Source: Bacteroidota bacterium (GTDB lineage: Bacteria; Bacteroidota; Bacteroidia; Bacteroidales; UBA932). Taken from it: 52,657 nt of DNA. The first letter of the stretch is position 1; each line of letters begins with the position of its first letter. A program made the position numbers and the translations under genes. A model generated the notes under the pieces. It saw nothing but the letters and a program-made list of their open reading frames with translations. It ran no database searches and had not been told where the DNA came from. The DNA lies in contig JAKQLB010000259.1 of NCBI GenBank assembly GCA_029567375.1, positions 1-52,657 of the forward strand, in the 5' to 3' direction. This document shows, piece after piece, positions 1-15,977 of the stretch.

Positions 1-827
1 GTCTTCCCTTGTCCTGCAAGAGCTATAACTACACTCCCTTCTGGAACCATTCTGGTTGAGCACTTGTCATAACCAAGTTGAGTAATTCTCCCTTCAACCT
101 CATACACTTGGCCAAGATTCACCTCCCCTGAACTCATCCAAGGAATAGTACCATTCTCCCAATAGTCCCTTTTCTCTTTTGATGGAGTTGCCCCTGAATA
201 GATATCAGTTGTAATCTCCTCCAAAGTACATTCTCTGGGTTCCTGCTCTGGGGTAAAATCAGAGAGAAGACTGTCTCTGTAATAGTTGTATTGTTGTAAT
301 CTTTTTTGCAGTTCTGCTTGCAGTTCTGCTTGCAGTTCTGTAAAAGTATCTAAAACTCTTACAATCTCTTCCTGAACAGGGAGAGGGGGGACAGGAATAG
401 AGATTGCCTTAATCATATTGGCATTGATATTTGGAACAGATGACTTCTGTTTCTCAAACTCGACAGTCTCCAAAGCATATTTCAGGTAATAAACACTAAG
501 TTGTGAGTCATTCTGAGGATATATAACCTTTAACCTTATGATTGGAGTATAATAGCATTCTCTAATTGTTGGGTAGCCAATAGTACCAATTGATGAAAAA
601 GTAACACTGACCTTGTCAATTCTATAAGATGATGCATATCCCCATAATGCATTTTCTCCAACACCATTTGAATAGATGGGGTAGATACAATCACCAATAG
701 GTTCTTTCCCCTTTATTGCATCATCAGGGGCTTCCCCACCAGTAAGAACTTCACATACCTCACCAATAGTCTTGTACTCCACCCCATCAGGACAGTATTT
801 CTGTATCAGTTCTTCCAACTTGCTCAT
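1..827 (-). CDS. hsdS: Type I restriction enzyme specificity subunit HsdS (partial)
   Basis: HsdS is the DNA-recognition subunit of a type I restriction-modification complex (HsdR2M2S1); it selects the bipartite target sequence. The start at ATG 827 gives MSKLEELIQKYCPDGVEYK, a typical HsdS opening, and the stretch near residues 140-160 (SIPVPPLPVQEEIVRVLDTF) is the conserved helix that follows the first target-recognition domain. About 275 residues are visible: the first recognition domain, the central conserved region and the start of the second domain; the 3' end is cut by the window edge. It starts 10 bp after the hsdM stop, so the two are co-transcribed. The hsdR gene is not visible and may lie beyond position 1. 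Residues 163-174 contain three ELQ-type tetrapeptide repeats that could set target spacing. Confidence 0.93.
   Translation of the reverse strand, partial: MSKLEELIQKYCPDGVEYKTIGEVCEVLTGGEAPDDAIKGKEPIGDCIYPIYSNGVGENALWGYASSYRIDKVSVTFSSIGTIGYPTIRECYYTPIIRLKVIYPQNDSQLSVYYLKYALETVEFEKQKSSVPNINANMIKAISIPVPPLPVQEEIVRVLDTFTELQAELQAELQKRLQQYNYYRDSLLSDFTPEQEPRECTLEEITTDIYSGATPSKEKRDYWENGTIPWMSSGEVNLGQVYEVEGRITQLGYDKCSTRMVPEGSVVIALAGQGK
306..341 (-). repeat. Three 12-bp tandem repeats in the hsdS spacer region
   Basis: Three consecutive 12-bp units (TTGCAGTTCTGC on the plus strand, the last ending in T) encode TELQ-AELQ-AELQ in the helix that separates the two HsdS recognition domains. In the EcoR124 family, gain or loss of a 12-bp TAEL unit at the same place changes the length of the nonspecific spacer in the recognition sequence. 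The same mechanism here is inferred from position and unit length. Confidence 0.8.
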
Positions 828-837
828 AACAGTGTCC

Positions 838-2397
838 TTATTGGAGTTCTGCAATAATCTTGTCAATCTCTGCCCTGAGCTTGTTCTCCTTCTCCACAAT
901 CTCCTTCAACTCTGCATTCAGCTTCACAATATCCACCTTCTCCCTGGTGTCCTCCTGCTCAACATAAGTGGAGACAGACAGGTTGTAGTCACCCTCTGCA
1001 ATCACATCATTGGAGACCAGCTTGGAGATGTGCTCCTTGTCCTCCCTGTCAGTAAAGACATCAAGGATGTTCTGGATGTTCTCCTCTGTGAGTTTGTTGG
1101 AGTTGGTGACCTTTACACATTCCTTGGTGGCATCTATGAACAGGGTGCAGTTGTCCTTCTTTGCCTTCTTCAACACCATTATGCAGGTTGCTATGCTGGT
1201 TCCAAAGAAGAGGTTGTCAGGGAGCTGGATGATGCAATCCACATAGTTGTTGTCAATCAGGTACTGCCTGATTTTCTTCTCTGCACCTCCCCTGTACATA
1301 ACACCAGGGAAACATACAATGGCTGCTGTACCATTGGTTGCCAGCCAGGCCAGGGAGTGCATGATGAAGGCCAGGTCAGCCTTGGACTTGGGAGCCAGGA
1401 CACCAGCTGGTGCAAACCTGGGGTCATTGATAAGGGTGATGTCATCATCTCCTTTCCACTTGATGGAATAGGGTGGATTTGAAACAATCACTTCAAAGGG
1501 TTCATCATCCCAGTGCTGGGGGCTTAGAAGGGTATCCTCACAGGCTATGTCAAACTTGTCATAGTCTATGTCATGCAGGAACATATTTATCCTGCACAGG
1601 TTGTAGGTGGTCAGGTTGATTTCCTGTCCAAAGAACCCCTGTCTTACATTGTCCTTACCCAGTATCTTTGCTGCCTTCAACAACAGGGAACCAGAACCAC
1701 AGGCTGGGTCATAGACCTTGTTGATCTGCTTCTTTCCAACAGTTGCCAGCTTGGTCAGGAGTTCACTCACTTCCTGGGGGGTATAGTACTCACCACCAGA
1801 CTTTCCTGCATTGGATGCATACATACCCATCAGGTACTCATAGGCATCTCCAAAGGCATCTATGGTGTTGTTCTGGTAGTCTCCCAGCTTCATAGACTGG
1901 ACACCTCTCAACAGCTTGACCAGTTTCTCATTTCTCTTGATGACAGTGGCTCCCAGCTTGTTGGAATTGACATCCAGATCTGCAAACAATCCCTTGAAGT
2001 CATCCTCACTGGCTGTGCCCTTTGCAGAGCTCTCAATGGATGCAAAGATGGCTTCCAGGGTCATATTCAGGTTGGGGTCAGCATCACATACCTTACAGAC
2101 ATTCTCAAAGAGCTGGGAAGGAAGGATGAAGAAACCCTTCACCCCCACCATCTCATCCCTGGCTCCTTCTGCTGTGGCATCATCAAGGTCTGCATAACTG
2201 AAAGACTTGTTTCCAGTTTCCCATTCTCCCTTGTTGATGTATGCAGTTATATTTTCAGAGATATACCTATAAAAGAGCATGCCCAGGATGTAGGACTTGA
2301 AATCCCATCCATCAACAGAGCCTCTCATCTCATCTGCAATAGCCCAGATGGTTCTGTGGAGTTCAGCTCTCTCCACTTCCTTTCTGTTGTCAGACAT
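838..2397 (-). CDS. hsdM: Type I restriction-modification DNA methyltransferase HsdM
   Basis: N6-adenine methyltransferase subunit of the type I system. The 519-residue product has the HsdM N-terminal helical domain (residues ~8-160), the GGEYYTP segment at ~201-207, the SAM-binding motif DPACGSG at ~230-236 and the catalytic NPPY motif at ~307-310; length is normal for the family. The start was set at ATG 2397 ([13 protein letters not shown]) because upstream codons in the open frame run through a CpG-bearing hairpin and lack conserved sequence. The gene contains no CpG that I can find; its Arg codons are AGA or AGG throughout. It is followed after 10 bp by hsdS. Together they can methylate, and restriction would need hsdR, which is not in the window. 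Confidence 0.95.
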
Positions 2398-2495
2398 AAA
2401 AAGTATGTATGTTTTTGATTGTAACTTGTAAAGATAATAATTTTGGCTGGGCTGGCAAAGAATTAGCCCCTGAAACTGACAGGACACACTATGAA

Positions 2496-2527
2496 GAAGG
2501 TCTGCGACCACTCAGTCGCAGACCTTC
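2496..2527. promoter_or_regulatory. 13-bp inverted repeat upstream of hsdM, containing CpG
   Basis: The arms GAAGGTCTGCGAC (2496-2508) and GTCGCAGACCTTC (2515-2527) are perfect reverse complements around the loop CACTCA. The site lies 99 bp upstream of the hsdM start and 55 bp after the stop of the preceding gene on the same strand. No T-run follows it on the minus strand, so a simple terminator is less likely than an operator or attenuator. It holds two of the nine CpGs in the element and shares the core TGCGAC...GTCGCA with the palindrome at 11717. Confidence 0.7.
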
Positions 2528-2582
2528 AATAACTGTTGAATCTAAAAATGAATAGTATGTAAAGCCTGATATCACATCAGTC

Positions 2583-2912
2583 TTATAAGACTCTAATTAA
2601 AAGTCCTTTATGTCTCAGCCAGAAGGTGTTCTCATAGGAGTCAAAAATAATCCCATGTTCTCCCACTGCCTCATAAGCTGCTCTTATATCTTCATCCAGG
2701 TCACTCTTGTCAAAAGCACTTCCAACTTCACTCTTGAAGTCCTCTGCCTGGGGATGGTCTTCTATCTCTGTCCAAGCCTTGATGATTTCTGACCTCTTGC
2801 CCTTATTATGTGCAAACTCTTCAATCTGGACTATTCTCTCACTCTTTGGAGGGGTATCCCTTGTGGGCTCCTCCCTTATGTATGTCTCCATTATTTTACT
2901 CAGCTTCTCCAT
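2583..2912 (-). CDS. Hypothetical protein of the mobile element
   Basis: I do not recognise this family. The product (about 109 residues from MEKLSKIMETYIREE) is acidic and likely soluble, with no signal peptide, membrane segment or clear motif. The start is uncertain: ATG 2912 overlaps the end of the upstream gene (stop 2896-2898) by 17 bp, and ATG 2891 would follow that stop directly; either suggests translational coupling. It sits between the large unknown gene at 2896-3858 and hsdM, on the same strand, separated from hsdM by 185 bp that contain a 13-bp inverted repeat. It is CpG-free like its neighbours, which argues that it is native to the element. Confidence 0.7.
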   Translation of the reverse strand: MEKLSKIMETYIREEPTRDTPPKSERIVQIEEFAHNKGKRSEIIKAWTEIEDHPQAEDFKSEVGSAFDKSDLDEDIRAAYEAVGEHGIIFDSYENTFWLRHKGLLIRVL

Positions 2913-3858
2913 CTTCAACAACCAAACCATTTATTTCTGCAATCTTTACAAGGACTTCATCTGCAATATCATGATAGAGAACATCCAGCCCTTTTTCCAA
3001 TGCCTCCTTAGGGATGTCCTTTCCCTTATTGCCATTTGTATTCACCACAGCCAGTTGAGCTTTTTCACTGGATAGGTAATCAATGACCATATCCTTTACA
3101 TAGAGAAGAACAATTCTAGCCTTGACCTTTGGGTCAAGTGTCTGAATTGCCACATTGAAAATATCATCAGCATTATAGCTCCCCACCTCTGTCTTAATCC
3201 TGTCCAAACAGTACTGGATGCATTTTTCTTCACAGGAAGTCTCAATCATCCCAACTCCAACAGTCTCATTAAGGGACTTGGTGTATTCATTGAACTTCTT
3301 CACAGGCCTTGTCTTCTTACCTTCAAAAGGAAGGTCATCCATATAGTCTTCCTCTTCATCAGGAACTGGCTCTGTCATTGGTACCAGGGTCCTTGGTTCC
3401 TTATCTGTAAGGCTGATTTGTGTAACACCAGGGACTGGGTCATCAGGTGTCTTTATGGTCTCCAAGACCTTATCCAGGATGACCTTGGCCAGCTCACCAA
3501 TAGCAAGTCCAAGTGCTTGCACCTGTGATTGGTCTTCACCCCAGCTGCACATACCATCAAAGACATTGCTGCTCCAATGATGAAAAAATATCAGGTCTTT
3601 TATGTGCTGTTGTAGCATCCCCTCTGGGTAACCAGGGTCAGGTCTCCCCAGAATAGAAAACTTATTTTTAACAAACTTTACCAGGGTGTCATAGTCCAAA
3701 AAACCATTACACTCATCTGCCAAATCCTGCATCACTTCCACAATACAGGAATCCCACCACTCAATTTCAAGGCTCACTCTGGCCTCATTGAGTCTCTGGC
3801 TCTTCTGCTCTTTAAGGAACTGTTTGAAAGTCCCAATTCTCTTACTCTTATTATCCAT
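2896..3858 (-). CDS. Hypothetical protein of the mobile element, 320 aa
   Basis: I do not recognise the family. It starts at ATG 3858 (MDNKSKRIGTFKQFLKEQ) and encodes 320 residues. The N-terminal half is mixed helical with several Trp and Cys (residues ~30-110), followed by a proline- and acid-rich linker around 150-175 (PVPDEEEDYMDDLPF) and a helical C-terminal half. The linker's DDLPF resembles the tail of single-stranded-DNA-binding proteins, but it is internal here, so I give it no weight. No signal peptide or membrane segment is seen. It is the first gene downstream of the IS3 insertion on this strand and is probably co-transcribed with the gene at 2583-2912, whose start it overlaps. The gene has no CpG. 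Confidence 0.75.
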   Translation of the reverse strand: MDNKSKRIGTFKQFLKEQKSQRLNEARVSLEIEWWDSCIVEVMQDLADECNGFLDYDTLVKFVKNKFSILGRPDPGYPEGMLQQHIKDLIFFHHWSSNVFDGMCSWGEDQSQVQALGLAIGELAKVILDKVLETIKTPDDPVPGVTQISLTDKEPRTLVPMTEPVPDEEEDYMDDLPFEGKKTRPVKKFNEYTKSLNETVGVGMIETSCEEKCIQYCLDRIKTEVGSYNADDIFNVAIQTLDPKVKARIVLLYVKDMVIDYLSSEKAQLAVVNTNGNKGKDIPKEALEKGLDVLYHDIADEVLVKIAEINGLVVEDGEAE

Positions 3859-3952
3859 AGCTTTACATATTTAATTGTATATTAGATGGTTATCCATCCT
3901 CTATATTTATGGATATTTTCATTCTGGGAGACTGAAAAAGGGGATAATAAAT

Positions 3953-3985
3953 AGGGACAGAAAGGTTGGTTTCCCATCTGTCCCT
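3953..3985 (-). terminator. Probable terminator of the minus-strand small-gene cluster
   Basis: AGGGACAG (3953-3960) and CTGTCCCT (3978-3985) form a perfect 8-bp inverted repeat; on the minus strand the hairpin is followed by an A/T-rich stretch (ATTTATTAT). It would have ended transcription of the genes now separated from it by the IS3 insertion. The region 3859-3952 also holds a short inverted pair, TATCCAT and ATGGATA, in front of the gene starting at 3858, which could be an operator. Confidence 0.5.
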
Positions 3986-3989
3986 GATG

Positions 3990-4015
3990 TGTCTTTCCCT
4001 GAAAAAAGTTGACTC
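3990..4015 (+). repeat. IS3 left terminal inverted repeat
   Basis: Begins TGTCTTTCCCTGA and ends GTTGACTC. It pairs with 5545-5570 at 19 of 26 positions. The target duplication ATG lies immediately outside. Confidence 0.85.
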
Positions 4016-4032
4016 GCAAACACGAGTTAACA

Positions 4033-4422
4033 ATGTTTATTTATCGAACAACACTGAGGGATCAGTATTATGAAAAAGCAATCGACTTGTATTATAGGGA
4101 AGGATATTCCGTCCGTCGTATTGCACAAATAATTCCCGTCAGTAAGAGTGGAATTGCTCGATGGATTGCTAACTTTGCAGAAGATAATCCGCATAAAGCA
4201 CCCATCATGAAGAAACGGTCTATAAAGCCGGAGCACCAAGTTGAGCAAGAACTTCGCGCCGATCTTCCTGAAGATGTAAAAGTTCTTCAGGAAGAGGTTC
4301 TTCGTCTCAAGAAAGAGCTCAAGCAAGAAAAGATGCGTGCAGATGCCTACGACATGATGATTGATCTGGCCGAGGATGCTTTCAAGATCCCGATCAGAAA
4401 AAAATCTGGCGCCGAACAGTAG
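4033..4422 (+). CDS. IS3-family transposase OrfA
   Basis: OrfA supplies the sequence-specific DNA-binding half of the IS3 transposase. The product (129 residues from ATG 4033, MFIYRTTLRDQYYEKAIDLYY) has a helix-turn-helix in its first 50 residues (YSVRRIAQIIPVSKSGIARW) and a coiled-coil-like leucine segment at ~85-110 (VLQEEVLRLKKELKQEKM), the usual layout of OrfA. A TTG codon at 4009 in the same frame lies inside the terminal repeat and is not a likely start. Near its end a run of seven A (4398-4404), in phase as A-AAA-AAA, allows a -1 shift into orfB; without the shift translation stops at 4422. Confidence 0.92.
   Translation: MFIYRTTLRDQYYEKAIDLYYREGYSVRRIAQIIPVSKSGIARWIANFAEDNPHKAPIMKKRSIKPEHQVEQELRADLPEDVKVLQEEVLRLKKELKQEKMRADAYDMMIDLAEDAFKIPIRKKSGAEQ
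4398..4404 (+). promoter_or_regulatory. Programmed -1 ribosomal frameshift site
   Basis: Seven consecutive A bases read in the orfA frame as A AAA AAA, the classic slippery heptamer. A -1 shift continues as IWRRTVEALHAKDAKTYEVL into orfB and yields the OrfAB fusion, the active transposase in this family. The phase of the heptamer and the open frame support it directly. Confidence 0.85.
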
Positions 4423-5432
4423 AGGCCCTGCATGCAAAGGATGCCAAGACCTATGAAGTCTTGGGCCTGTGCAAATTGTTTGGCGTATCCAAGCAGGCAT
4501 ATTATCAACATGACGAGTCAAGAGTATTGCTGAGGGTTGCCCAGGAAGCTTTTGTGCTGGAGTATATACGCGCTATCCGAGAGAAGGATCCTGGTCTGGG
4601 CGGCAGCAAGCTCTGGTATATGTACCGCCGTGACTTTGGGGGCAATAATCCTGTCGGTCGTGACCGCTTTGCAGATATCGTAGACAGGCATAATCTCAAG
4701 GTGAGGCTTCGCGTCCGAAAGCCTCGGACAACGGACTCAACACACGGTCTGCCGACATATCCAAACATCGTGAAAGACTTTATTCCAACCGCACCTAATC
4801 AACTATGGGTAAGTGATATTACATACATTACCATATGGGTAGATGCATATCATTATATACACTGCTTTTTGTCTCTCATTCTCGATGCCTACACCGAAGA
4901 GATTGTGGGATGGAGTGTTGGCCCCACGTTATCAACCCAGCACCCTGTGGAGGCACTCAGGATGGCACTTAAACGCATAGAGGGAGCTGAGAGCGCCTCT
5001 CTTATACATCACTCTGACCGCGGCTGTCAGTATGCCAGTTCGGAGTACATACAGCTCCTCAAAGGCCATAACATCCGCATCAGTATGACGGAAACCGGGG
5101 ATCCAAAGGATAATGCTCAGGCAGAGCGTATCAACAACACGATGAAGAATGAACTCTTAAAGGGAATGAAGTTCTCTTGCATTGAAGAAGTTATCGCCGC
5201 TGTATGCAGAGCGGTGGACTTCTACAACAACGAACGACCTCACATGAGCATCAATATGATGACCCCCGCCCAGGCTGCCTTCTGCGAGGGGACCATTGAG
5301 AAAATGTGGTTCAGCTACCGTGAAAAAGCCATCCGAGAGAAGCAGTCCGTCTTGGAAATCCCTGAAAAAACTTTACCTTTGTGCATCGGTCAGGGATCTC
5401 CTTCCGGGCTACGCCCTCCAGTCAATCCCTGA
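4404..5432 (+). CDS. IS3-family transposase OrfB, DDE catalytic domain
   Basis: Catalytic half of the transposase, made as an OrfAB fusion by -1 frameshifting at 4398-4404; the coordinates give the open frame after the shift. An HTH_21-type segment (LGGSKLWYMYRRDF) precedes the RNase H-like core, whose acidic triad is visible in WVSDITYI, HHSDRGCQY and NAQAERINN (DDE with the last E about 35 residues after the second D). The C-terminal YNNERPHMSINMMTPAQA motif is typical of rve_3 domains. No internal stop is seen, so the copy is probably functional. A TTG at 4461 could allow separate initiation, but the frameshift product is more likely. Confidence 0.92.
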   Translation: MWRRTVEALHAKDAKTYEVLGLCKLFGVSKQAYYQHDESRVLLRVAQEAFVLEYIRAIREKDPGLGGSKLWYMYRRDFGGNNPVGRDRFADIVDRHNLKVRLRVRKPRTTDSTHGLPTYPNIVKDFIPTAPNQLWVSDITYITIWVDAYHYIHCFLSLILDAYTEEIVGWSVGPTLSTQHPVEALRMALKRIEGAESASLIHHSDRGCQYASSEYIQLLKGHNIRISMTETGDPKDNAQAERINNTMKNELLKGMKFSCIEEVIAAVCRAVDFYNNERPHMSINMMTPAQAAFCEGTIEKMWFSYREKAIREKQSVLEIPEKTLPLCIGQGSPSGLRPPVNP

Positions 5433-5435
5433 CCG
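5387..5435 (+). terminator. Stem-loop at the end of the IS3 transposase gene
   Basis: CGGTCAGGGAT (5387-5397) and ATCCCTGACCG (5425-5435) are perfect 11-bp complements; the transposase stop codon lies in the right arm. There is no clear T-run, so it may act on mRNA stability or block read-through rather than be a standard terminator. Confidence 0.45.
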
Positions 5436-5544
5436 GGATACGACCTGGGTAGACAACAAAATACAGGGATAACGACTACAAGTCAACCCACATCAGTTAT
5501 AAGTTAAACCAGAGTCAACTTCTATCAGGGATAGACTCCAGCCG

Positions 5545-5570
5545 GAGTCAACCTAAATCCGGAAATGACA
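5545..5570 (-). repeat. IS3 right terminal inverted repeat
   Basis: Read inward it starts TGTCATTTCCGGA and ends GGTTGACTC, matching the left repeat at 19 of 26 positions. A further copy of the inner sequence lies at 5512-5536 and pairs even better with 3991-4015, but the target duplication and the CpG boundary place the true end here. Confidence 0.85.
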
Positions 5571-5599
5571 ATGAAAAAGTGTGTCATTTTTCAGGTCTC

Positions 5600-5764
5600 T
5601 TAATAACAACAATAACCCATTTTGGTTCTATTTCTGACTATGTCATTATAGACTTCATTGAAGTCAACTTCTTCCTTGTCATAGTGGAACTTCTTCATAG
5701 TCAATCCATCAACATCCCAAAACTCCAAGGCAGCTATTACATCTTGGTCTAAATATCTCTTCAT
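5600..5764 (-). CDS. Small hypothetical protein, 54 aa
   Basis: A short open frame from ATG 5764 (MKRYLDQDVIAALEFWDVDG) to TAA at 5600-5602. It encodes 54 residues, acidic in the middle (YDKEEVDFNEVYND) and ending MGYCCY. I do not recognise it. It lies 18 bp after the stop of the 122-residue gene on the same strand and follows the same CpG-free codon use, so it is probably the last gene of the minus-strand cluster that runs from 8222 leftward. The IS3 insertion 27 bp beyond its stop now separates it from the likely cluster terminator at 3953-3985. Confidence 0.6.
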   Translation of the reverse strand: MKRYLDQDVIAALEFWDVDGLTMKKFHYDKEEVDFNEVYNDIVRNRTKMGYCCY

Positions 5765-5782
5765 TATCTTACACCTCCTTTA

Positions 5783-6151
5783 CTACCATATACCATACCT
5801 TGAACTCTCTTCACACATCCTTTGTTCCACAACTCTGGACAAAAGGTTACAGAACCCATCAACATTCCTGACCTTCCCACATTTCTCAAACAGGGGAAGT
5901 ATGACTTGGTTAAACTCACTGGAAAACTGTTTTGGATCCATTTCCCCTTTGTTTCTCAACACATCATCCACCCTTTCAACATCAGTCATAGTCCAACCCT
6001 TTACAACCCTTCTCATCCACCTTAATTCCAGACTCCTGTTCTTCTTTTCCATCAGGTCACTTACAATGTACCCACTAAATGGCATTTCCTGAGAAATCTT
6101 TTCCTTTGCAATCTTTCTCCAACTCTTGGATGTCTTTCTTTTCTGATTCAT
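5783..6151 (-). CDS. Hypothetical protein, 122 aa
   Basis: Starts at ATG 6151 (MNQKRKTSKSWRKIAKEK), 2 bp after the stop of the upstream gene, which indicates translational coupling. The N-terminal ~20 residues are strongly basic and the rest is helical and charged with a few Cys near the end. No motif that I recognise, no membrane segment. The tight spacing places it in one operon with 6154-6513 and probably the four genes upstream. The basic N-terminus could bind nucleic acid, which is only a guess from charge. Confidence 0.65.
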   Translation of the reverse strand: MNQKRKTSKSWRKIAKEKISQEMPFSGYIVSDLMEKKNRSLELRWMRRVVKGWTMTDVERVDDVLRNKGEMDPKQFSSEFNQVILPLFEKCGKVRNVDGFCNLLSRVVEQRMCEESSRYGIW

Positions 6152-6153
6152 AA

Positions 6154-6513
6154 CTATACCTCCTTCTCTTTATATTTCAACATCCCCCAACTGTCCCTGT
6201 AATAGGTGACATCCTTCCCTGTTTCCTTCTTCACCTTCTCCTCCAAAACCTTGAAGAGTCTTTCATCCTTCTTTTTCTCCCAGTTCATAACATCAATGTC
6301 AGTCATAGGGGTGATCCACTCATAAGTGTTCAGTATTTCACCAGATGTCTTGTCAAGTGTGTGACAGATACCAAACAGGAAGTGTTCCCCATTCCTTTTC
6401 TGATAAACCCTTTCAATCTTCTTGAAATCAACCTTATCTCCCTTCTCCACATAGTCTGTGGACATTTCCATCCAAGATGTTTCTGTGTTGTACATCTTGT
6501 TGTTGATTTTCAT
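6154..6513 (-). CDS. Hypothetical protein of the YNTETS family, 119 aa
   Basis: Start chosen at ATG 6513 because MKINNKMYNTETS matches the opening of the paralogue at 7283-7783 (MKKIINKKTYNTETS); a longer start at 6561 is possible. The N-terminal block of the type K-I-N-x-K-x-Y-x-T-E-T followed by Y-x-x-x-(N/E)GEHFLFG is found in many small phage and plasmid proteins of unknown function, often written as a KIINGKxYDTETA motif. After it (residues ~55-119) comes a helical, lysine-rich part. Nothing in the sequence shows a catalytic site. It overlaps no neighbour and is two bases from the next gene downstream. Confidence 0.65.
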   Translation of the reverse strand: MKINNKMYNTETSWMEMSTDYVEKGDKVDFKKIERVYQKRNGEHFLFGICHTLDKTSGEILNTYEWITPMTDIDVMNWEKKKDERLFKVLEEKVKKETGKDVTYYRDSWGMLKYKEKEV

Positions 6514-6568
6514 CCTTACACCATAATGGGTATGTTCTAAACAATTACTTCTCATACTCATATTCCTT

Positions 6569-6865: not shown

Positions 6866-6886
6866 AACTTATTTAATATTAAAGGT

Positions 6887-7261: not shown

Positions 7262-7282
7262 AATTATCTATTATTTAATTGT

Positions 7283-8367: not shown

Positions 8368-8386
8368 GGAGAAAAACACAAAAAAA

Positions 8387-8407: not shown

Positions 8408-8434
8408 TTTTTGTCAACATGTCATAGTGTCAGA

Positions 8435-9496: not shown

Positions 9497-9517
9497 ATCA
9501 TTGGTTTTAGTTCTCAA

Positions 9518-9855
9518 AGTTACTAATTCAGCCTCAGTTGAGCAAATAAAACAAAAGGAGAGACCCCTTGTCCCTCCTGATGCTGATATGAAAGTATGGA
9601 AAGTAGAGTATCACTCCAAATGAAAGTTTCAACACAGTCCTGCACACTCACAGGACACATATAGTATCACCCTGTATAATTCTTAAAAGGGGTAGGGGTT
9701 TCCATCTCTGGTCACCCCTTGGTATATAATAACACTATGGCTTAAAACTGCATCACAATAGTCTGTACTGGTGTTTTTGTGTCATGCATCCCCCTTGGCA
9801 GGGGTGGATGTCTGAAATACTGAAAGTGGATGTCCAAAATGTGGGGTTCCCTGGT
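9518..9855. other. Noncoding region upstream of the 353-aa gene
   Basis: About 340 bp without a plausible gene. I see AAGGGGT...ACCCCTT complementary arms near 9689-9721 and a short stem CATCC-CCC / GGGG-TGGATG at 9786-9810, which could end transcription from 9856, and otherwise nothing I can name. It has no CpG. Confidence 0.4.
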
Positions 9856-10344
9856 TTAGAAGGGGAGTTCATCATCCTCTGAACTGCCATCTCCACAGGG
9901 GGTATCATATAGTGAGTCCTGCTCTATGTCATAGTAGAATGCTTCATCTACCACAAGGCCCCAATTATTGATACAGGTGGAGTAGGTCTCATCATCCAAT
10001 TCCATAGGAATAATGGTGTAGGTGAGCTTTAACCTGTCTATGGCATTATTGCAGATTCTTCTCATCCAGGCATCAAAGGTAGGGTGGGTCATCCCTTCCT
10101 TGTCAGCCCAGTCAGGCTCACCCCTGAACTCATTGTTTATTGTGAAGTCCTTTTCCTCATTGCCATTGTAGTAAAGGTGCATAGCAGCAAGGTATCCTGC
10201 ATAGTCCTCTGCCTTTTTAAGGACATCTTCCTTGATGGGTCTCTTTATGACATAGCCATAGATGGTCTTGAAGTTATAGCCATTCTCTGTCTTCTCTGAT
10301 GGGAGCAATAATGGCCTTGACAGTCTAATAATAGTTACTTTCAT
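9856..10344 (-). CDS. Hypothetical protein with SSB-like C-terminal tail, 162 aa
   Basis: Starts at ATG 10344 (MKVTIIRLSRPLLLPSEK). The body is mixed alpha/beta and I do not recognise its fold. The last residues, SSEDDELPF, have the form of the acidic tip of bacterial single-stranded-DNA-binding proteins (consensus DDDIPF), which recruits replication and repair proteins; the preceding stretch (DIEQDSLYDTPCGDGSS) is a flexible acidic linker of the same kind. Length (162) is also in the SSB range. It may therefore be a divergent SSB of the element or a mimic that binds the host's SSB partners; that is inference from the tail only. It lies 29 bp after the 68-residue gene on the same strand. Confidence 0.65.
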   Translation of the reverse strand: MKVTIIRLSRPLLLPSEKTENGYNFKTIYGYVIKRPIKEDVLKKAEDYAGYLAAMHLYYNGNEEKDFTINNEFRGEPDWADKEGMTHPTFDAWMRRICNNAIDRLKLTYTIIPMELDDETYSTCINNWGLVVDEAFYYDIEQDSLYDTPCGDGSSEDDELPF

Positions 10345-10373
10345 ATCCTTTTATATTTTTGATTATAAGATAT

Positions 10374-10580
10374 TTATGTGGTTTTGTTACTGGGATTATC
10401 TGGGACAGGCTCCTCCTTTTCAGTAAAGATAGGAGTGTTATCCTTTACCTCTTTGAGTAAGTTGATAAGGTCATCCAGTGACTCATCCTTGAAGGTAGGA
10501 AGTAGCTTTAAGTGCAGCTCCCTGGTAGCAAGTTCATCCTGGAACTCCTGGTATGATTGATTTATTTCCTCTATTGTCAT
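10374..10580 (-). CDS. Small hypothetical protein, 68 aa
   Basis: Starts at ATG 10580 (MTIEEINQSYQEFQDEL). An acidic, mostly helical protein (residues 1-50 likely coiled or helical) with a Pro-rich end (EPVPDNPSNKTT). No recognised family. It is the first gene of a two-gene unit with the SSB-tailed protein downstream (29-bp gap), and its 260-bp leader contains two consecutive hairpins. It has no CpG. Confidence 0.6.
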   Translation of the reverse strand: MTIEEINQSYQEFQDELATRELHLKLLPTFKDESLDDLINLLKEVKDNTPIFTEKEEPVPDNPSNKTT

Positions 10581-10678
10581 ATGATATTTATTGCTGTTGT
10601 CTTCTATCCCTTAACTCTTACCTGATACCTATAAGAACACAACTTCCTTATTATGCCTTACATCTCTACCACCAAAGG

Positions 10679-10732
10679 GAAATCCTGATAAGCTGAAAGC
10701 TTGAAGGATTTCACTTCCAGGTGAAACCTGGA
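10679..10732. other. Two consecutive hairpins in the leader of the 10580 gene
   Basis: Hairpin one: GAAATCCT (10679-10686) with AGGATTTC (10705-10712), enclosing AAGCT-GAA-AGCTT. Hairpin two: TCCAGGT-GAA-ACCTGGA (10716-10732). Both have three-base loops and lie four bases apart. They could be a structured leader RNA, or termination and processing signals after the gene ending at 10844. The remainder of 10581-10843 shows nothing I can name. Confidence 0.45.
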
Positions 10733-10843
10733 CTTACCCCTTGTCTTATTTTCTCTTTCATTGACTTGTAGTGAATGAAATGAACTACAATAAGTATATT
10801 TATATACTATGGCACCATTTGACACCCCTTAACTTATTGATAA

Positions 10844-11605
10844 TCAATAATTGTTATCTGATGTGTTATGCTCATCAGAAACCATTTGACACCCCCTATG
10901 AGTTCTCTTAAACCTTTGTAGGGTTGGTTCACTTATAATTAGACCATTATCTTTCATCTTGTCAAGGTTCTGCTGATTGGTCAGTGCATCATCAAATAGT
11001 TCCTCCATCCTCTTCCATCTGATTTCCTTATCCTTCTTCCTTTGAAGTCCAACCACCTGACCTGTTGTCTTACCTTTTTTCAGTTTTGGATCCATACAAT
11101 ATTGTCTGGTGTCCCTCCTCTCACAGATGACATCATTCCTCTGGACAGTGGCTGCCATTTTTTCCATCTTGGTCAGATTGGTCTTGTTTGGTTCATACAT
11201 CCCTTCTACAAAGGTGAGTTTCCAGATGATATGACAGACTGCAAAGTATCCCATCTCCATAGTGTTGGTCACACCTATTTTTTTCAAGAAACACAGATAG
11301 CTGTACAACTGCTCTATGACATCCTTCTTGGTCTTACAGTATACCTTGTTGTGGAACTTGCCACCCTTCACCCTGTTGGTGTTGTACTTCAACCAGGTTC
11401 CATCATTGTATGCATAACCATCCACAAAGGTCTTGGGGGTTTCCCATAGTCCTTTGGAGTAGTCATTTACCCTTTGCTTGCTGATGTTAGGAATGTATTT
11501 GTGGGTTAGTATCCTCCTGTACAGATCCTTTCTCATATTTACCCACTCTTTCTTATTGTCCCATTTGATGGAACTGGTCTTCTTTTTCTTGTCTAAGTAT
11601 CTCAT
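10844..11605 (-). CDS. Hypothetical basic protein, possible DNA-binding/replication protein
   Basis: Start chosen at ATG 11605 (MRYLDKKKKTSSIKWDNKKEW); the open frame extends upstream but crosses tandem repeats and a palindrome, so the longer form is unlikely. The 253-residue product is rich in Lys/Arg, has aromatic-rich central parts (DGYAYNDGTWLKY, residues ~60-72) and a C-terminal segment (LDKMKDNGLIISEPTLQRFKRTH) that resembles a helix-turn-helix. I do not recognise the family. Its promoter region, with 16-bp tandem repeats and a 22-bp palindrome, would suit an autoregulated replication or regulatory protein; this is inference from context. Confidence 0.6.
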   Translation of the reverse strand: MRYLDKKKKTSSIKWDNKKEWVNMRKDLYRRILTHKYIPNISKQRVNDYSKGLWETPKTFVDGYAYNDGTWLKYNTNRVKGGKFHNKVYCKTKKDVIEQLYSYLCFLKKIGVTNTMEMGYFAVCHIIWKLTFVEGMYEPNKTNLTKMEKMAATVQRNDVICERRDTRQYCMDPKLKKGKTTGQVVGLQRKKDKEIRWKRMEELFDDALTNQQNLDKMKDNGLIISEPTLQRFKRTHRGCQMVSDEHNTSDNNY

Positions 11606-11674
11606 AATCAATCCATTTATATTAAATATAACAAAAAATCCAAGGATTTGTGAAACAAGGGGAAGGGAAGGAAA

Positions 11675-11706
11675 GGAGTTATTGAACACAGGAGTTTTTG
11701 AACACA
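11675..11706. repeat. Tandem 16-bp direct repeats
   Basis: GGAGTTATTGAACACA (11675-11690) is followed directly by GGAGTTTTTGAACACA (11691-11706), one mismatch. They sit between two divergent transcription units and 10 bp from the 22-bp palindrome; iteron or operator roles are possible. Confidence 0.7.
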
Positions 11707-11716
11707 GGGAGATTGC

Positions 11717-11738
11717 GGTTGCGACAGCTGTCGCAACC
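11717..11738. promoter_or_regulatory. Perfect 22-bp palindrome with CpG
   Basis: GGTTGCGACAG followed by CTGTCGCAACC is a perfect palindrome without a spacer. It holds two CpGs, with a third at 11716, in an element that otherwise lacks them, and shares TGCGAC...GTCGCA with 2496-2527. It lies 112 bp upstream of the start at 11605 and 120 bp upstream of the divergent start at 11858, so it is likely a protein-binding site. The rest of 11606-11857 holds the tandem repeats and CpGs at 11792 and 11795. Confidence 0.75.
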
Positions 11739-11857
11739 ACCACCTGACAGTTTGACTTTTTATGTCTAAATAATTGATTATAGCCAAGTTCCGGCGCAAT
11801 AGCTGTATCATTATAATTGAGTTCAAAACCTGACAAACTTACATAACAACACCTATT

Positions 11858-12034
11858 ATGGAACAGATTATCATCATTATGACTGACAAAGACAGGTACT
11901 TCCTGTCAATCCTCTTTGCCCTGGCTGGTTGTATGGCCAATGGTTATCACCCTGCACCTGCTGTGAAGACAGCAGTAGAAGCAGCAGACTACTTGAAGAA
12001 AACCCTTAAAGAATCAGAAGTAGATGAACAGTAA
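11858..12034 (+). CDS. Small hypothetical protein, 58 aa (copy A)
   Basis: Open frame from ATG 11858 (an internal ATG at 11879 gives MTDKDRYFLSILFALAGCMA) to TAA 12032-12034. The sequence has a hydrophobic first half and a helical, charged end (KTAVEAADYLKKTLKESE). It resembles the 59-residue protein at 12246-12425 in the layout ANGYHPAPAVKTAVEAADYL versus ANYHHNLIPGTYWAAGAVEL, so the two are probably paralogues. Its end overlaps the start of the zinc-ribbon-like gene by 11 bp. Function unknown; the hydrophobic stretch is interrupted by charges and is not a clear membrane segment. Confidence 0.6.
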   Translation: MEQIIIIMTDKDRYFLSILFALAGCMANGYHPAPAVKTAVEAADYLKKTLKESEVDEQ

Positions 12035-12233
12035 CCCCTACAAGAGAAAATGCTGCATCTGCAAGAAACCCATAGAGGGGACAGGACATAACCCCATCCC
12101 TGTCTGGCCAACTGGTAGATGCTGTGATAAGTGCCACACCACCTATGTTCTCCCAGCCAGGTATAGGCTGATTGCCATAAGGGAAGAACTGGAAAAGACA
12201 GAACAGGATGACACTGACAAGAACAACCAATAA
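12024..12233 (+). CDS. Small zinc-ribbon-like protein, 69 aa
   Basis: Starts at ATG 12024, overlapping the previous gene by 11 bp. The pattern CCICKK...GRCCDKCH gives two Cys pairs, CxxC and CxxC, that fit a small zinc-binding fold, followed by YVLPARYRLIAIREELEK, a helix. The core PIEGTGHNPIPV...GRCCD...YVLPAR recurs in the 141-residue protein at 7797-8222. Such small proteins are common in phages and plasmids of gut bacteria; the function is not known to me. It sits between two paralogous 58/59-residue genes. Confidence 0.7.
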   Translation: MNSNPYKRKCCICKKPIEGTGHNPIPVWPTGRCCDKCHTTYVLPARYRLIAIREELEKTEQDDTDKNNQ

Positions 12234-12245
12234 TCAGCAGCACAT

Positions 12246-12425
12246 ATGGACAAAGAAGAAAAAAGATTCTGGGCAGCAGCCATAATCCTTGGAGGGATGA
12301 GTGCAAACTACCACCATAACCTCATCCCTGGCACTTACTGGGCAGCAGGAGCAGTGGAACTTGCAGACCATCTCCTTGAAACCCTTTCAGAGAAACCAAT
12401 GAAGGATCCAAAAGTATCAGAATAA
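12246..12425 (+). CDS. Small hypothetical protein, 59 aa (copy A')
   Basis: Open frame from ATG 12246 (MDKEEKRFWAAAIILGGMSA) to TAA 12423-12425, 12 bp after the zinc-ribbon-like gene. It resembles the 58-residue product at 11858-12034: an N-terminal charged stretch, FWAAAIILGGMSANYHH, then a helix ending in ADHLLETLSEKP. The gene order A, zinc ribbon, A' suggests duplication. It precedes the serine recombinase by about 60 bp on the same strand. No function can be given. Confidence 0.6.
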   Translation: MDKEEKRFWAAAIILGGMSANYHHNLIPGTYWAAGAVELADHLLETLSEKPMKDPKVSE

Positions 12426-12486
12426 CCAAAATGGGGAAAAGTATCAAAATAATCTTGGAAAACACTTTTGATACAGCCTTCCCCCT

Positions 12487-13152
12487 ATGTCAAAGAAACT
12501 TAAAAGATTAAAAGGTATGGAAGAACCCATTAAAGTATGCATCTATGCCAGGGTGTCCACCTCCCAGCAGGACTTCACCCATCAGCTCACCTCTTTGAGA
12601 GCCTATGCCAAGGAACACCACTACCAGGTAGTCAAGGAATACACAGAGAAAATCAGTGGAGCCAAAAAGGTGGCTGAGAGACAAGCCCTGTCTGAACTCC
12701 TGGAAGATGTGGAGAAGAACCAGGTCAAGAAGATTCTGGTCTTTGAGTGCAGCAGACTTTCAAGGAGAGCTCTGGACTTCCTGTCCATCATTGAGAAGCT
12801 GAATGAGAGAGGGGTGTCTGTCTTCATCTTACAGAATGGGCTGGAAACCTTATTGCCAGATGGAAAGGTCAATCCCATTGCATCCCTTGTATTGGGAATA
12901 ATGTCCCAGTTCAATTCTATGGAGAGAGACCTGATCAGGGCAAGGATGAAGAATGGATATGACAACCTCAGGGCACAGCACCCTGGTGAGAAGGTGGTTG
13001 GAAGGAAGGTTGGGTACAGGAAGACCAACTACCAGGAAGAGTACTCCAAGGAAATCTCCCTCTTGAAGAAGGGGGTCTCTTTGAGGGACTGTCAGAGCCT
13101 GACAGGAACAAGCATCAACACTTTGAGAAAACTTAAATCAATGTTTGTGTGA
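12487..13152 (+). CDS. Serine recombinase of the resolvase/invertase family
   Basis: Small serine recombinase (221 residues) that cuts and exchanges DNA at short paired sites. The catalytic domain is complete: YARVSTSQQD with the nucleophile Ser24, the Arg-containing CSRLSRRALDF motif near residues 83-93, and the helix E segment (NPIASLVLGIMSQFNSMERDLIRARMKNG) that precedes the DNA-binding domain. The C-terminus (EEYSKEISLLKKGVSLRDCQSLTGTSINTLRKL) is a short helix-turn-helix. ATG 12487 is used; ATG 12517 is also possible. A second resolvase-type HTH is encoded by the next gene 1 bp after the stop. Targets might be element dimers or an invertible segment; none is seen in the window. Confidence 0.93.
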   Translation: MSKKLKRLKGMEEPIKVCIYARVSTSQQDFTHQLTSLRAYAKEHHYQVVKEYTEKISGAKKVAERQALSELLEDVEKNQVKKILVFECSRLSRRALDFLSIIEKLNERGVSVFILQNGLETLLPDGKVNPIASLVLGIMSQFNSMERDLIRARMKNGYDNLRAQHPGEKVVGRKVGYRKTNYQEEYSKEISLLKKGVSLRDCQSLTGTSINTLRKLKSMFV

Positions 13153-13153
13153 T

Positions 13154-13321
13154 ATGGGAAAAATTGGAAGACCAAGAATGACCAGGAAGGACTATTACAT
13201 CAAGTACCACAGGGTGATATTTGATTTGAAGTATATGGAAATGTCTTTGAGAAGGATAGCAAAACAGGAGAAGATAGGGCTCAGCACAGTAATGAGACTC
13301 AAAAAGAAGTTTGCATTGTAA
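13154..13321 (+). CDS. Small stand-alone resolvase-type HTH protein, 55 aa
   Basis: Starts at ATG 13154, one base after the stop of the serine recombinase, and ends at TAA 13319-13321. The sequence GRPRMTRKDYYIKYH...MSLRRIAKQEKIGLSTVMRL has the GRPR linker and helix-turn-helix pattern found at the C-terminus of resolvases (HTH_7-like), but here it is a separate protein. It could help the recombinase bind DNA, act as a regulator, or be a remnant of a tandem duplication. The start spacing implies coupled translation with the recombinase. Confidence 0.7.
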   Translation: MGKIGRPRMTRKDYYIKYHRVIFDLKYMEMSLRRIAKQEKIGLSTVMRLKKKFAL

Positions 13322-13485
13322 AAAAATATATGCATTACAGGGCATTGTAGGGCATATTTTGAAAAAAAGTTTCTCAAAACTGCATTTTTTCCTTCAAAGC
13401 ACCTCCTCTTTTGGTATATTTAAGTAGAGTTCAGTTCTGAACCTCTGGACAAGGACAATCCTTGGAGTTTTAATCAAAGAAATAG

Positions 13486-13665
13486 ATGGAAGGAAAAAAG
13501 ACTATGGGTCTTGAAGACCCTGATGTGGTTGTGGAAACCAAAGACAAGACTGTTAAGAAGAAAAAGTTGTGGGAAGACAGTGGGTATGATGACCCACCAT
13601 TCTATGATGAGTTTAGACCCCACTGGGGACCTGGGAGTAAATACAAACCTTGGATTAATGGATAG
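13486..13665 (+). CDS. Small hypothetical protein, 59 aa
   Basis: Open frame from ATG 13486 (MEGKKTMGLEDPDVVVETKD) to TAG 13663-13665. Lys-rich middle (KDKTVKKKKLWED), then an aromatic, Pro/Gly-rich end (FRPHWGPGSKYKPWING). No family recognised. The next gene starts at 13670, with the putative ribosome-binding AGGAG overlapping this stop codon, so both are probably translated together. The 164 bp in front (13322-13485) carries an AT-rich promoter-like region with TATATTTA but no consensus I can confirm. Confidence 0.55.
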   Translation: MEGKKTMGLEDPDVVVETKDKTVKKKKLWEDSGYDDPPFYDEFRPHWGPGSKYKPWING

Positions 13666-13669
13666 GAGT

Positions 13670-13939
13670 ATGGAAATGAGAAAGATTAAAGATTTGTATG
13701 TCCATCATTGTTGGTGGGATGACCCTGATGGTGGTTTTAGTGAAGGTTATGAACTCCTTGAAAAGGTTGGAGGAGATGAATGGAAACAATTGGTGTTCAT
13801 CCCAGAGAGTTATGTTGAAGGTGACCCATACAAGATGAGTGACCAGGAACTTGAACAAGAGATAAAGAACTGGTTAAACCCTCAATGGTGTCATCAAAGG
13901 TTATTGGATGTGTTGGATAGTTGTGTTATCCCTCTGTGA
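13670..13939 (+). CDS. Hypothetical protein, 89 aa
   Basis: Start set at ATG 13670 (MEMRKIKDLYVHHCWWDDPDG); the open frame extends upstream to 13511, but that part is a shifted reading of the preceding gene. The product contains VHHCWWDDPDGG and is acidic and aromatic-rich, with a helical C-terminus (SDQELEQEIKNWLNPQW). I do not recognise it. An AGGAG motif at 13664-13668 serves as the ribosome-binding site. It lies about 90 bp before the excisionase-like gene on the same strand. Confidence 0.6.
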   Translation: MEMRKIKDLYVHHCWWDDPDGGFSEGYELLEKVGGDEWKQLVFIPESYVEGDPYKMSDQELEQEIKNWLNPQWCHQRLLDVLDSCVIPL

Positions 13940-14030
13940 CATAATGAGTTTGGAAACCCATGGTCATCAGGGTATAACAAGTACAAACCCTGAATATATG
14001 GAAATAGTATGTATAATAATAGAAAATAGT

Positions 14031-14291
14031 ATGAGTGAAACAGTTATTATGGAGATGCAGTCCAAGATGGACAACATCATCACAACCTTGAATAACATCA
14101 AGGAAGGTACAGTAGAAAGGGTGTATAACACCAAGGAGTTATCAGAGTACCTCAAAGTGGGGGTATCTGCTATTGAGAAGATGAGACAGGATGGGGAGTT
14201 GGCATATGCAAGGTTGGGTAGGACTTATATCTACACCCAGACAGATGTTGACAACCTTATTAAGAAGAACCATATAGAGTTTGTTTCATAG
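14031..14291 (+). CDS. Excisionase-like helix-turn-helix protein
   Basis: Start set at ATG 14031 (MSETVIMEMQSKMDNIITTL) to give 86 residues. The C-terminal half, VYNTKELSEYLKVGVSAIEKMRQDGELAYARLGRTYIY, is a typical MerR-like winged HTH of the HTH_17/excisionase family (TKELSEYLxV...RxDGxLxxxxxGRxxxY). Such proteins bind near attachment sites and direct the integrase toward excision. The gene is next to the integrase: its stop at 14289-14291 is one base before the integrase ATG at 14293. Regulation by coupled translation is likely. Confidence 0.85.
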   Translation: MSETVIMEMQSKMDNIITTLNNIKEGTVERVYNTKELSEYLKVGVSAIEKMRQDGELAYARLGRTYIYTQTDVDNLIKKNHIEFVS

Positions 14292-14292
14292 T

Positions 14293-15624
14293 ATGGAAGG
14301 AAAGTTTTTTCTCAGGACAGACAACAAACCCAATCAGTTTGGGGAACATATGATAAACATCCAGTACTGCACACAGGGGGTACCTTGTAAGAAGAAGACA
14401 GGTATCAGTGTGAAACCAGAGTATTGGTTGGGGGACAATGGGACCAACAAGTATATCAAGGAAGGACCCAATGGTCACCCCAAAGGAAAGATGTTGAACC
14501 AGTTACTGACTAACATCAAGAAGGGGTATGATGAGATTATTGACAGTCTCATTGTCCAGAATAACCAGGTTATACCTGTTCCTGTTTTGAGAAGTATCCT
14601 GAATGGTACTTATAGTGAGGAACAGGAGATATCAAGGGGTAAGGTGGATTTTGTTCAGTTTGTTTTGGACTTCAATGAGGAGGAGTACAAACTAGGGAAG
14701 GTGGGGTACTCCATCTGGGTGAATGTTCAGAGTTATATGAAGAAGTTCAAGGAGTTCCTCCAAAAGACTAAACACATCCACACCAGTAGTGATAACCTCT
14801 TGTATTGTAGGGATGTAACAGTAGATTTGATTAGGGACTACATCCTTTGGAGAAAGGATAATGGTAACATCAACAAGACCATCAACCACTCCTTGACACC
14901 CATCTTCAAGGCACTCAAAAAGTGTTGTAGGGAAGGATGGATTGAAAGGGAGGTTTATGATGAGATAACAGAGCTCTACCTTCCCACCAATGGTCAAGAA
15001 CTTGGAGAGGATAAGAAGATTGACTACCTGACCATAGACCAGTTAAAATCACTCAAAGAAGCTGCTGCCAATGCAAAGTTTGATAGAACCAGGGATTTTG
15101 TAGATATGTTTATGTTTTCTTTCTTCTGTGGAGGGTTGAGGGTAAGTGACATCATTTCCCTGAAATGGGAGGAAGTAGATATGGAAAACAAGATGGTAAG
15201 ACACTACCAGGTCAAGAACCACAACAGGAAGTCCATCCTCCTTACAATCCCAATGGCAGATGGTGCAGTTAAGATTTTGGAGAAGTGGAAAGGTAGGAAT
15301 GAGAACTATGTGTTTGGACTTCTGGATGATGAGTTTGATATGAGTGATGAAGAAAAGTTCCAGAACATCAAACAGTCCAGGACAAGGACAATCAACCAGT
15401 CCCTTGCTGCACTTGGAGAAAAGATAGACCTTCCATTCAAACTCCACATCCACTGTGCAAGACACTCCTTTGGTACCAATGGTCTGAACAATGGTGGAGA
15501 TATCAAAACCATATCTGCACTTATGGGACACTCCTCAATCCTGGTGACAGAGAAGGTATATGCAACTGTCCTCCCAGAGACTTTACAGAAGAATGTTCAG
15601 GAGTATTTGAACTTTGAAATATAG
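14293..15624 (+). CDS. int: Tyrosine recombinase / phage integrase
   Basis: Catalyses integration and excision of the element. The 443-residue product (start ATG 14293, MEGKFFLRTDNK; the TTG at 14281 in frame overlaps the upstream gene and is less likely) has an arm-binding/SAM-like N-terminal part as in Bacteroidetes integrases (phage_int_SAM_5 type, ~115-215) and a C-terminal catalytic domain with Arg283 (GGLRVSDI), His387/Arg390 (HIHCARHSFGT), His413 (LMGHSS) and the nucleophile Tyr423 (EKVYATV). All catalytic residues are present. It is CpG-free, with the catalytic Arg283 encoded by AGG. Its position as the last gene before host DNA is as expected for an integrase. Confidence 0.95.
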   Translation: MEGKFFLRTDNKPNQFGEHMINIQYCTQGVPCKKKTGISVKPEYWLGDNGTNKYIKEGPNGHPKGKMLNQLLTNIKKGYDEIIDSLIVQNNQVIPVPVLRSILNGTYSEEQEISRGKVDFVQFVLDFNEEEYKLGKVGYSIWVNVQSYMKKFKEFLQKTKHIHTSSDNLLYCRDVTVDLIRDYILWRKDNGNINKTINHSLTPIFKALKKCCREGWIEREVYDEITELYLPTNGQELGEDKKIDYLTIDQLKSLKEAAANAKFDRTRDFVDMFMFSFFCGGLRVSDIISLKWEEVDMENKMVRHYQVKNHNRKSILLTIPMADGAVKILEKWKGRNENYVFGLLDDEFDMSDEEKFQNIKQSRTRTINQSLAALGEKIDLPFKLHIHCARHSFGTNGLNNGGDIKTISALMGHSSILVTEKVYATVLPETLQKNVQEYLNFEI

Positions 15625-15635
15625 GGGAAGGTGGT

Positions 15636-15929
15636 CCAAGGATAGTAAAAGGGTATTTCTTTGGATAGTGCATCAGATTTCCCAGTCATCAGCTCATCAG
15701 GAGTTCAACATATGGAGTAAAGATTAGAATAATAAGTAATATGCTGGTATTCAGTATTTTGCAAAGGCACTTTACCTGAATTGGTTAGTGCCTTTATTCT
15801 TTGTGTTTTCTATTACCTTTTTGGGAGGATTTTGGATTTTCAAGGATAGTGTGTAGGGAAGTAATACCCCCAAAATGACCTTTATTTGACCAGTTTTGGG
15901 CATGAAAAAAGCCAGGGAACTATCCTTGG
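15636..15929. repeat. CAAGGATAGT repeats between integrase and host gene
   Basis: CCAAGGATAGT occurs at 15636-15646, CAAGGATAGT at 15841-15850 and its inverted form ACTATCCTTGG at 15919-15929; a shorter TGGATAGT is at 15662-15669. Repeats of this kind beside an integrase gene suggest arm-type or core-type integrase sites. The att core itself cannot be fixed without the left junction. Confidence 0.55.
15763..15800 (+). terminator. Intrinsic terminator of the integrase gene
   Basis: AAAGGCACT (15763-15771) pairs with AGTGCCTTT (15787-15795), followed by ATTCTTTGTGTTTTC, a T-rich tail. Confidence 0.75.
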
Positions 15930-15933
15930 CTTT
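15908..15933 (-). terminator. Terminator downstream of the DUF2795 gene
   Basis: On the minus strand AAAGCCAAGG pairs with CCCTGGCTTT with one bulge and is followed by T residues. It serves the gene ending at 15978 and is partly made of the inverted CAAGGATAGT copy, so the attachment site may overlap this terminator. Confidence 0.65.
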
Positions 15934-15977
15934 CTCATAAGTTGCTGATTTTCAGCACTATTTTACAAACAATCCTG

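Follow-up and report, generated by a model that had tools for sequence, protein, structure and literature searches.

A rare Bacteroidales integrative element almost free of CpG dinucleotides in CpG-normal hosts

Phages and plasmids are known to avoid restriction sites through the loss of 4-6 base palindromes from their genomes. Depletion of the bare CpG dinucleotide is familiar from vertebrate DNA and vertebrate viruses, where methylation decay and ZAP lower it to about 0.2-0.5 of expectation, and elements with Arm-DNA-bind_5/SAM_5 integrases and HTH_17 genes are found in Bacteroidales. Here, we describe an integrative element that occupies the first 15,977 positions of a 52,657-nucleotide contig (JAKQLB010000259.1, assembly GCA_029567375.1; contig G000:C277) of a Bacteroidales bacterium. 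This complete contig is referred to as the window. The assembly to which it belongs is fragmented, with 400 contigs and 89% completeness, and its first base lies inside hsdS, so that the element's left end is located beyond the contig. Outside an internal insertion sequence (IS, 3990-5573), the element is almost devoid of CpG.

Across 1-3989 and 5574-15960, we counted nine CpGs (461, 2505, 2517, 8310, 11716, 11722, 11732, 11792 and 11795), exactly those listed in the original prediction, which had been made from the sequence alone. In 1-3989 and 5574-15960, CpG has observed/expected ratios (O/E) of 0.02 and 0.01, respectively, compared to 0.84 for the IS and 0.89 for the chromosome at 16000-52657, which the prediction had likewise described as CpG-normal. 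The CpG-poor stretch stops at the stop codon of a chromosomal DUF2795 gene (15978), and the next CpG follows at 15992. As predicted, CpG is completely absent from hsdM (counted from the ATG at 2394), the integrase and the serine resolvase, all 163 arginine codons in 19 element open reading frames (ORFs) are AGA or AGG, and TCG, CCG, ACG and GCG do not occur in them.

The prediction had further held that C|G is shunned across codon boundaries beyond ordinary codon bias and had proposed a codon-preserving shuffle as a check. Drawing chromosomal synonymous codons for the 19 ORFs (some of them shortened where they overlap or where the start is doubtful) resulted in 494±18 CpGs against one observed. 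Permuting the element's own codons among synonymous positions gave 252.8±10.4 codon-spanning C|G, again against one observed, the lowest of 300 shuffles still containing 221. The claim therefore stands. For the chromosome, the same permutation gave 966±19 against 860 observed; for two close relatives, located in the Rikenellaceae metagenome-assembled genome (MAG) SUG662 (L010) and the Bacteroidaceae MAG Horse_feces29 (L011), it gave 82±6 against one and 119±8 against five, respectively. That codon bias, low G+C or misassembly yields the lack of CpG has a single point in its favour, the lower G+C of the element (0.40-0.44 versus 0.46 in the chromosome). It is ruled out, with hardly any doubt left, by the codon-preserving shuffles, the depleted spacers, the three separate assemblies and the CpG-normal IS within the element. 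These results support a CpG avoidance that is element-wide, acts at the DNA level and goes beyond codon bias.

The features of the element and its border are as follows (strand given as + or -, or as none).
1-15977, none: CpG-free integrated element, left end past the contig, O/E 0.01-0.02 outside the IS
3-899, -: hsdS, specificity subunit of a type I system, truncated at the contig end, with a single CpG at 461 (Pfam PF01420, 9.8e-30)
841-2394, -: hsdM, type I methyltransferase, 0 CpG versus 87 expected (PF02384, 4.6e-115)
2496-2527, none: perfect hairpin GAAGGTCTGCGAC-CACTCA-GTCGCAGACCTTC upstream of hsdM, two of the nine CpGs
2586-2930, -: protein of no named family, DNA 74% identical to L011 4420-4637, where a similar ORF lies
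2899-3858, -: protein of no named family, like L011 4651-5535 by eye (unaligned)
3990-5573, +: inserted IS, CpG O/E 0.84, two transposase-like ORFs by eye, bounds as in the original prediction
5574-8000, -: block devoid of CpG and with hardly any GpC, with five ORFs at 5783-7876
8435-9517, -: 360-aa protein of no named family
11601-11858, none: divergent intergenic block, five of the nine CpGs, palindrome GGTTGCGACAGCTGTCGCAACC, conserved in L010 and related in L011
12487-13149, +: serine resolvase, 0 CpG (PF00239, 3.6e-34)
13908-14288, +: HTH_17 excisionase-like protein (PF12728, 4e-09)
14281-15621, +: tyrosine integrase, 0 CpG (PF00589, 8.7e-23; PF13102, 1.1e-11)
15978-16199, -: chromosomal DUF2795 gene (Pfam for the window copy), at whose 3' end the element is inserted in each of the three hosts

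The window thus carries an integrative element from a lineage that is rare in Bacteroidales, equipped with a tyrosine integrase, an HTH_17 excisionase-like gene, a serine resolvase and type I restriction-modification (R-M) cargo.

The surviving CpGs are located mainly in two places, the hairpin and the divergent block, whose left bound of 11601 presumes that ORF 10844-11836 starts near 11600; the remaining two are found in hsdS (461) and in the upstream part of ORF 7797-8420 (8310). The block contains 5 CpGs against 8.6 expected, and the matching blocks hold five at corresponding places in L010 (8.4 expected) and four in L011 (6.5 expected). All other window spacers counted (2194 bases) contain 2 CpGs versus 73.4 expected, both in the hairpin stem. 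Since CpGs are kept in the conserved block and the hairpin, the element is able to retain CpG where it matters. The same contrast between a presumably untranscribed block and the other spacers would fit an effect at the RNA level, where a nuclease or toxin cuts transcripts at CpG (GpC in some lineages) when the element is active, leaving only target-free transcripts. We consider this quite improbable: the block is conserved in sequence, so that functional constraint explains its CpGs equally well, every other spacer would need to be transcribed, and we know of no bacterial RNase that cuts at CpG.

Besides CpG, parts of the element have lost GpC, which the original prediction had described as frequent. 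This is only partly correct, the O/E of GpC being 0.74 in 1-3989, 0.06 in 5574-8000, 0.66 in 8000-13500 and 0.29 in 13500-15960; the depletion and the accompanying loss of alanine had both been missed. The five ORFs at 5783-7876 contain a single alanine in 711 residues (ORF starts as listed, two of the five overlapping), compared to 7.6% in chromosomal ORFs. As alanine requires GCN codons, the loss of GpC is visible at the protein level. These ORFs are consecutive, lie on one strand and show purine-rich first codon positions (0.63-0.77), as in genes; two of them are alike over 45 residues (E 3e-4) and share a YNTETS motif. Two of three distant tblastn matches carry alanine at the end of this motif (H42 YNTETA, H43 YDTETA), while H41 reads YNTKTS. 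An element in another genome (L077 6500-13000, G058:C9) is GpC-poor (0.58) and CpG-normal (0.94), with AGC, GGC and CGC far below TGC, suggesting that the avoided word differs among element lineages. Separately, a 67-kb contig of the window's own genome (G000:C206) is mildly low in GpC, with 0.79 and 0.82 in two 20-kb stretches (L223, L224); this contig also encodes a C5-methyltransferase.

The lack of CpG is shared by the two close relatives. In the window, L010 and L011, one and the same gene marks the end of the element at its stop codon (3/3); Pfam assigns the window copy to DUF2795, and the L010 and L011 copies were recognised by sequence likeness. Both relatives show a sharp right border to CpG-normal chromosome. 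The L010 integrase is 81-82% identical to that of the window and the L011 integrase 73%; the elements that contain them have CpG O/E values of 0.03 and 0.05, respectively, in the stretches used. The left end is present in neither the window nor L010. When 27 integrases were placed in a tree, those of the window, L010 and L011 clustered together (support 100/100), each with a CpG O/E of 0.00. The L017 integrase (G530, 51% identical) joins this trio (100/99) with 0.34 for CpG and 0.40 for GpC, and the remaining 23 show CpG values of 0.81 or higher. Five of 29 integrase loci are omitted from this tree (L025, which is the L010 contig, and the CpG-normal L023, L034, L042 and L044), as are seven further own-genome integrase loci (L002-L008), whose whole-locus values are 0.66-1.00. 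Among matches at E up to 1e-60 in two overlapping genome sets, 398 from the family and 393 from the order, integrases of more than 40% identity occurred only in the own genome, L025 and L017. To the left of the L011 element, a gene with matches to leucine-rich repeats and M64 peptidase (953-3760) is CpG-poor toward its N-terminal end, with, for example, no CpG at 3029-3442.

The HsdM proteins of the window and L054 are 86% identical (78% at the DNA level) and their genes contain 0 and 3 CpGs; diverged and yet both nearly CpG-free, they indicate that the state endures many synonymous changes. In the hsdM tree, the window, L067 and L054 form a group with the CpG-normal L053 as sister (100/100; inner support 88/71). 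L067 is only partly CpG-poor (O/E 0.34): along 594 aligned nucleotides (87% identical DNA) it contains 9 CpGs, eight of them at sites without CpG in the window, L053 and L054, and judged by this alignment the extra CpGs look like regain. Other hsdM relatives are CpG-normal with the exception of the A+T-rich L191; among the 14 found in IMG/VR, 13 show values of at least 0.70 and L191 (28% G+C) 0.21. The test put forward in the original prediction, whether relatives of the integrase and hsdM lack CpG too, gave a positive answer for two close integrases and one hsdM and an intermediate one for a second hsdM, the remaining hsdM relatives being normal, L191 aside. Overall, CpG has been purged from genes and spacers, this purge has outlasted much divergence, and the host and the flanks of the relatives are normal.

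A further CpG-poor locus was found in a genome of another family, where an R-M operon (L072 1-8144, G315:C31) lies in a normal chromosome; its hsdM and hsdS are nearly CpG-free, and its hsdR is mostly so. The operon is broken by CpG-normal parts, namely a Fic-like gene, a transposase-like gene and the end of hsdR, which look like recombination tracts. Except for hsdM, which was found by search, the genes of this operon were named by eye from translations; by the same means, two Fic-like genes and a transposase-like gene were placed between the operon parts. This patchy operon, together with the partly CpG-poor L067 of a third genome, would fit a gene pool or host lineage beyond the sampled genomes that is CpG-free for its own reasons and exports elements and R-M genes. 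We judge such a source improbable, since integrase and hsdM relatives in whole genomes belong to the window's order or to named Bacteroidota MAGs, no genome of the order is CpG-poor (see below), and nothing close occurs in phage or plasmid records. The latter contained distant integrases only, all below 60% identity, and nothing for protein P0003 or for the element DNA (5574-13573 searched in phages, 8001-15960 in plasmids). IMG/VR held no relatives of the integrase, the 360-aa protein, the resolvase, P0003 or a 23-mer from the intergenic block.

The hosts themselves are not CpG-poor. In a sample of the own genome (365 kb of 3.38 Mb; sections with fewer than 8 expected CpGs skipped), none of 721 counted 500-bp sections had a CpG O/E below 0.2. 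Among 91 genomes of the order, each represented by one contig of up to 12 kb (8 of 99 contigs consisted of N only and were omitted), none was CpG-poor, the lowest O/E being 0.54, and 0 of 898 counted 1-kb sections (those with fewer than 15 expected CpGs skipped) fell below 0.15. The pressure on the element does not come from its present host nor, as far as sampled, from the order. Matches to C5-methyltransferases occur at five places in the own genome and two in the L010 host, while the search of the L011 host MAG gave none.

We favour long-term purging of CpG, read as evasion of a CpG-reading barrier, as the explanation, with a probability of roughly 0.4; a CpG-directed mechanism that the element evades had been the second explanation offered in the original prediction. 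When the element moves or re-establishes between hosts, a host process would read CpG (GpC for some lineages) in its DNA or RNA and harm it, and CpG would be counter-selected in the element. The most economical reader of a known type would be a donor cytosine methyltransferase combined with methyl-dependent (type IV) restriction in the recipient: a CpG-free element could not be marked by the donor enzyme and would pass the recipient. CpG would be retained only at the element's own control site, where the word is needed. To us, continuing selection seems likelier than decay alone, given an O/E of 0.01, a state that persists over deep divergence, hosts with normal CpG, proteins that have lost alanine and a control site that has been spared.

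Several observations weigh against evasion of such a barrier. McrBC was present in only one of five host genomes, and no molecule was identified as a CpG reader; the search for SRA was uninformative, as its controls themselves gave no signal. The trait also occurs in the chromosomal R-M operon of G315, where no integrase search was made, so that it may extend beyond this element. Only three close members are known, two of them MAGs. Furthermore, four-fold sites that precede G show an excess of T over A in the pooled elements (log odds ratio 0.67±0.21) and in the G315 R-M genes (1.68±0.42), compared to 0.12±0.14 in the chromosome. This is the excess that deamination predicts, and it favours loss by C-to-T change. 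Finally, in the L054 hsdM, 59 of 78 C|G changes lead to T, which is nearer to the deamination fingerprint (NCA accounting for 41 of 102 NCG changes).

Such patterns would fit a purely mutational origin, in which the element was mostly CpG-methylated (partly at GpC) in an unsampled host or replicating form, deamination drove CpG to zero, and the copies observed in normal hosts have arrived there only recently. The TpG over ApG excess, strong in the G315 R-M genes, the eight of nine L067 CpGs that look like a return of CpG once a normal host had been reached, and L017, whose value of 0.34 is compatible with amelioration, all speak for it. Other tests point the other way. In the window hsdM, NCG was replaced by NCA in 31 and by NCC in 40 of 102 cases, without preference for NCA, compared to 34 and 11 of 62 between CpG-normal pairs, and C|G was replaced by T in 46 of 88 cases versus 17 of 28; sums were pooled over 12 CpG-normal relatives, which are non-independent, and compared with six CpG-normal pairs. 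The window hsdM changes are spread over synonymous alternatives and do not form a deamination fingerprint. After C, no clear excess of A over T was observed (log odds ratio 0.65±0.20 in the elements, 0.01±0.40 in the G315 R-M genes and 0.37±0.14 in the chromosome). The substitution tests thus give a split answer.

Two further considerations bear on the mutational origin. Decay of methylated cytosine takes vertebrate CpG to an O/E of about 0.2, and the value near 0.01 observed here is more extreme than expected from such decay alone; by our estimate, it would need a decay of the order of a hundredfold over background. Moreover, no CpG-poor genome occurred among the 91, and no C5-methyltransferase was found in the L011 host MAG. 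As it was stated in the original prediction, long residence in a CpG-methylating host is not supported by these two results, and the expected TpG/CpA fingerprint appeared in one test and was absent in the other. We regard a mutational origin as somewhat unlikely.

The integrase match to Arm-DNA-bind_5 falls slightly below the cut-off, and the other scanned ORFs gave no confident Pfam match. No relaxase or conjugation genes were detected among the ORFs scanned, the left end being missing, and no attL/attR repeats were identified: no second core copy was found in L011, and in the window and L010 the left end is lacking. From the type I R-M system, the window contains hsdM and a partial hsdS, while hsdR would have its place past the contig end; six HSDR_N matches in the own genome are all CpG-normal. 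No second copy of the IS was found in the own assembly. For the 360-aa protein, neither viral contigs nor 298 other genomes of the family yielded a relative, and P0003 gave one weak match in 374 genomes of the order. Structure predictions were of too low quality for use, with a mean predicted local distance difference test (pLDDT) score of 37.0 for P0003 and 39.8 for the 360-aa protein. A polymerase-A-like look of P0003, based on motifs judged by eye, was not confirmed. The window protein at 2586-2930, for which L011 has a likely counterpart, shows a weak PADLOC match to AbiN (E 0.0032). L011 also encodes a 544-aa protein (5791-7422) with no confident family match and polymerase-A-like motifs by eye only, which resembles, again by eye, two ORFs of L010 3-1187 and was not seen in the window.

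The near-total loss of one dinucleotide from mobile DNA in normal hosts implies a strong and lasting force to which the element is exposed and the host is not. If this force is selection, foreign and own would be told apart by a two-base word, and we know of no bacterial system that discriminates in this way; if it is mutation, there would be cells or a form of replication beyond the samples in which CpG is modified to an extreme degree. Our results suggest that CpG and GpC are read as words by some process among bacteria. A bolder version would be an undescribed immune-like process that reads bare dinucleotides in mobile DNA or transcripts and spares the chromosome, to which this lineage answered with its CpG-free state; we hold this to be unlikely, if conceivable. 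The same bold version, with the same reserve, would have GpC removed blockwise until proteins lost alanine and CpG kept only in the control site.

In the titles and opening parts of abstracts in the open-access literature, we found no description of CpG-free bacterial mobile DNA. Compared to known systems, the element resembles phages and plasmids that avoid restriction sites in being a mobile replicon that sheds short host-read words; there, these words are palindromes of known enzymes, whereas this element has lost a mere dinucleotide from almost all contexts, together with GpC in blocks. As in vertebrate DNA and viruses, both genes and spacers have lost CpG, although the depletion is far deeper than the vertebrate range, the bacterial hosts are normal and GpC is affected, too. 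With the Bacteroidales elements mentioned at the outset, it shares the integrase, excisionase-like gene, resolvase, fixed site and R-M cargo, and it differs from them in its dinucleotides, in having no relaxase among the scanned ORFs and in most of its other genes matching no family. The G058 element is similar in its integrase and, by eye, in its HTH-like and resolvase-like genes, while its CpG content is normal and its integrase only 34% identical.

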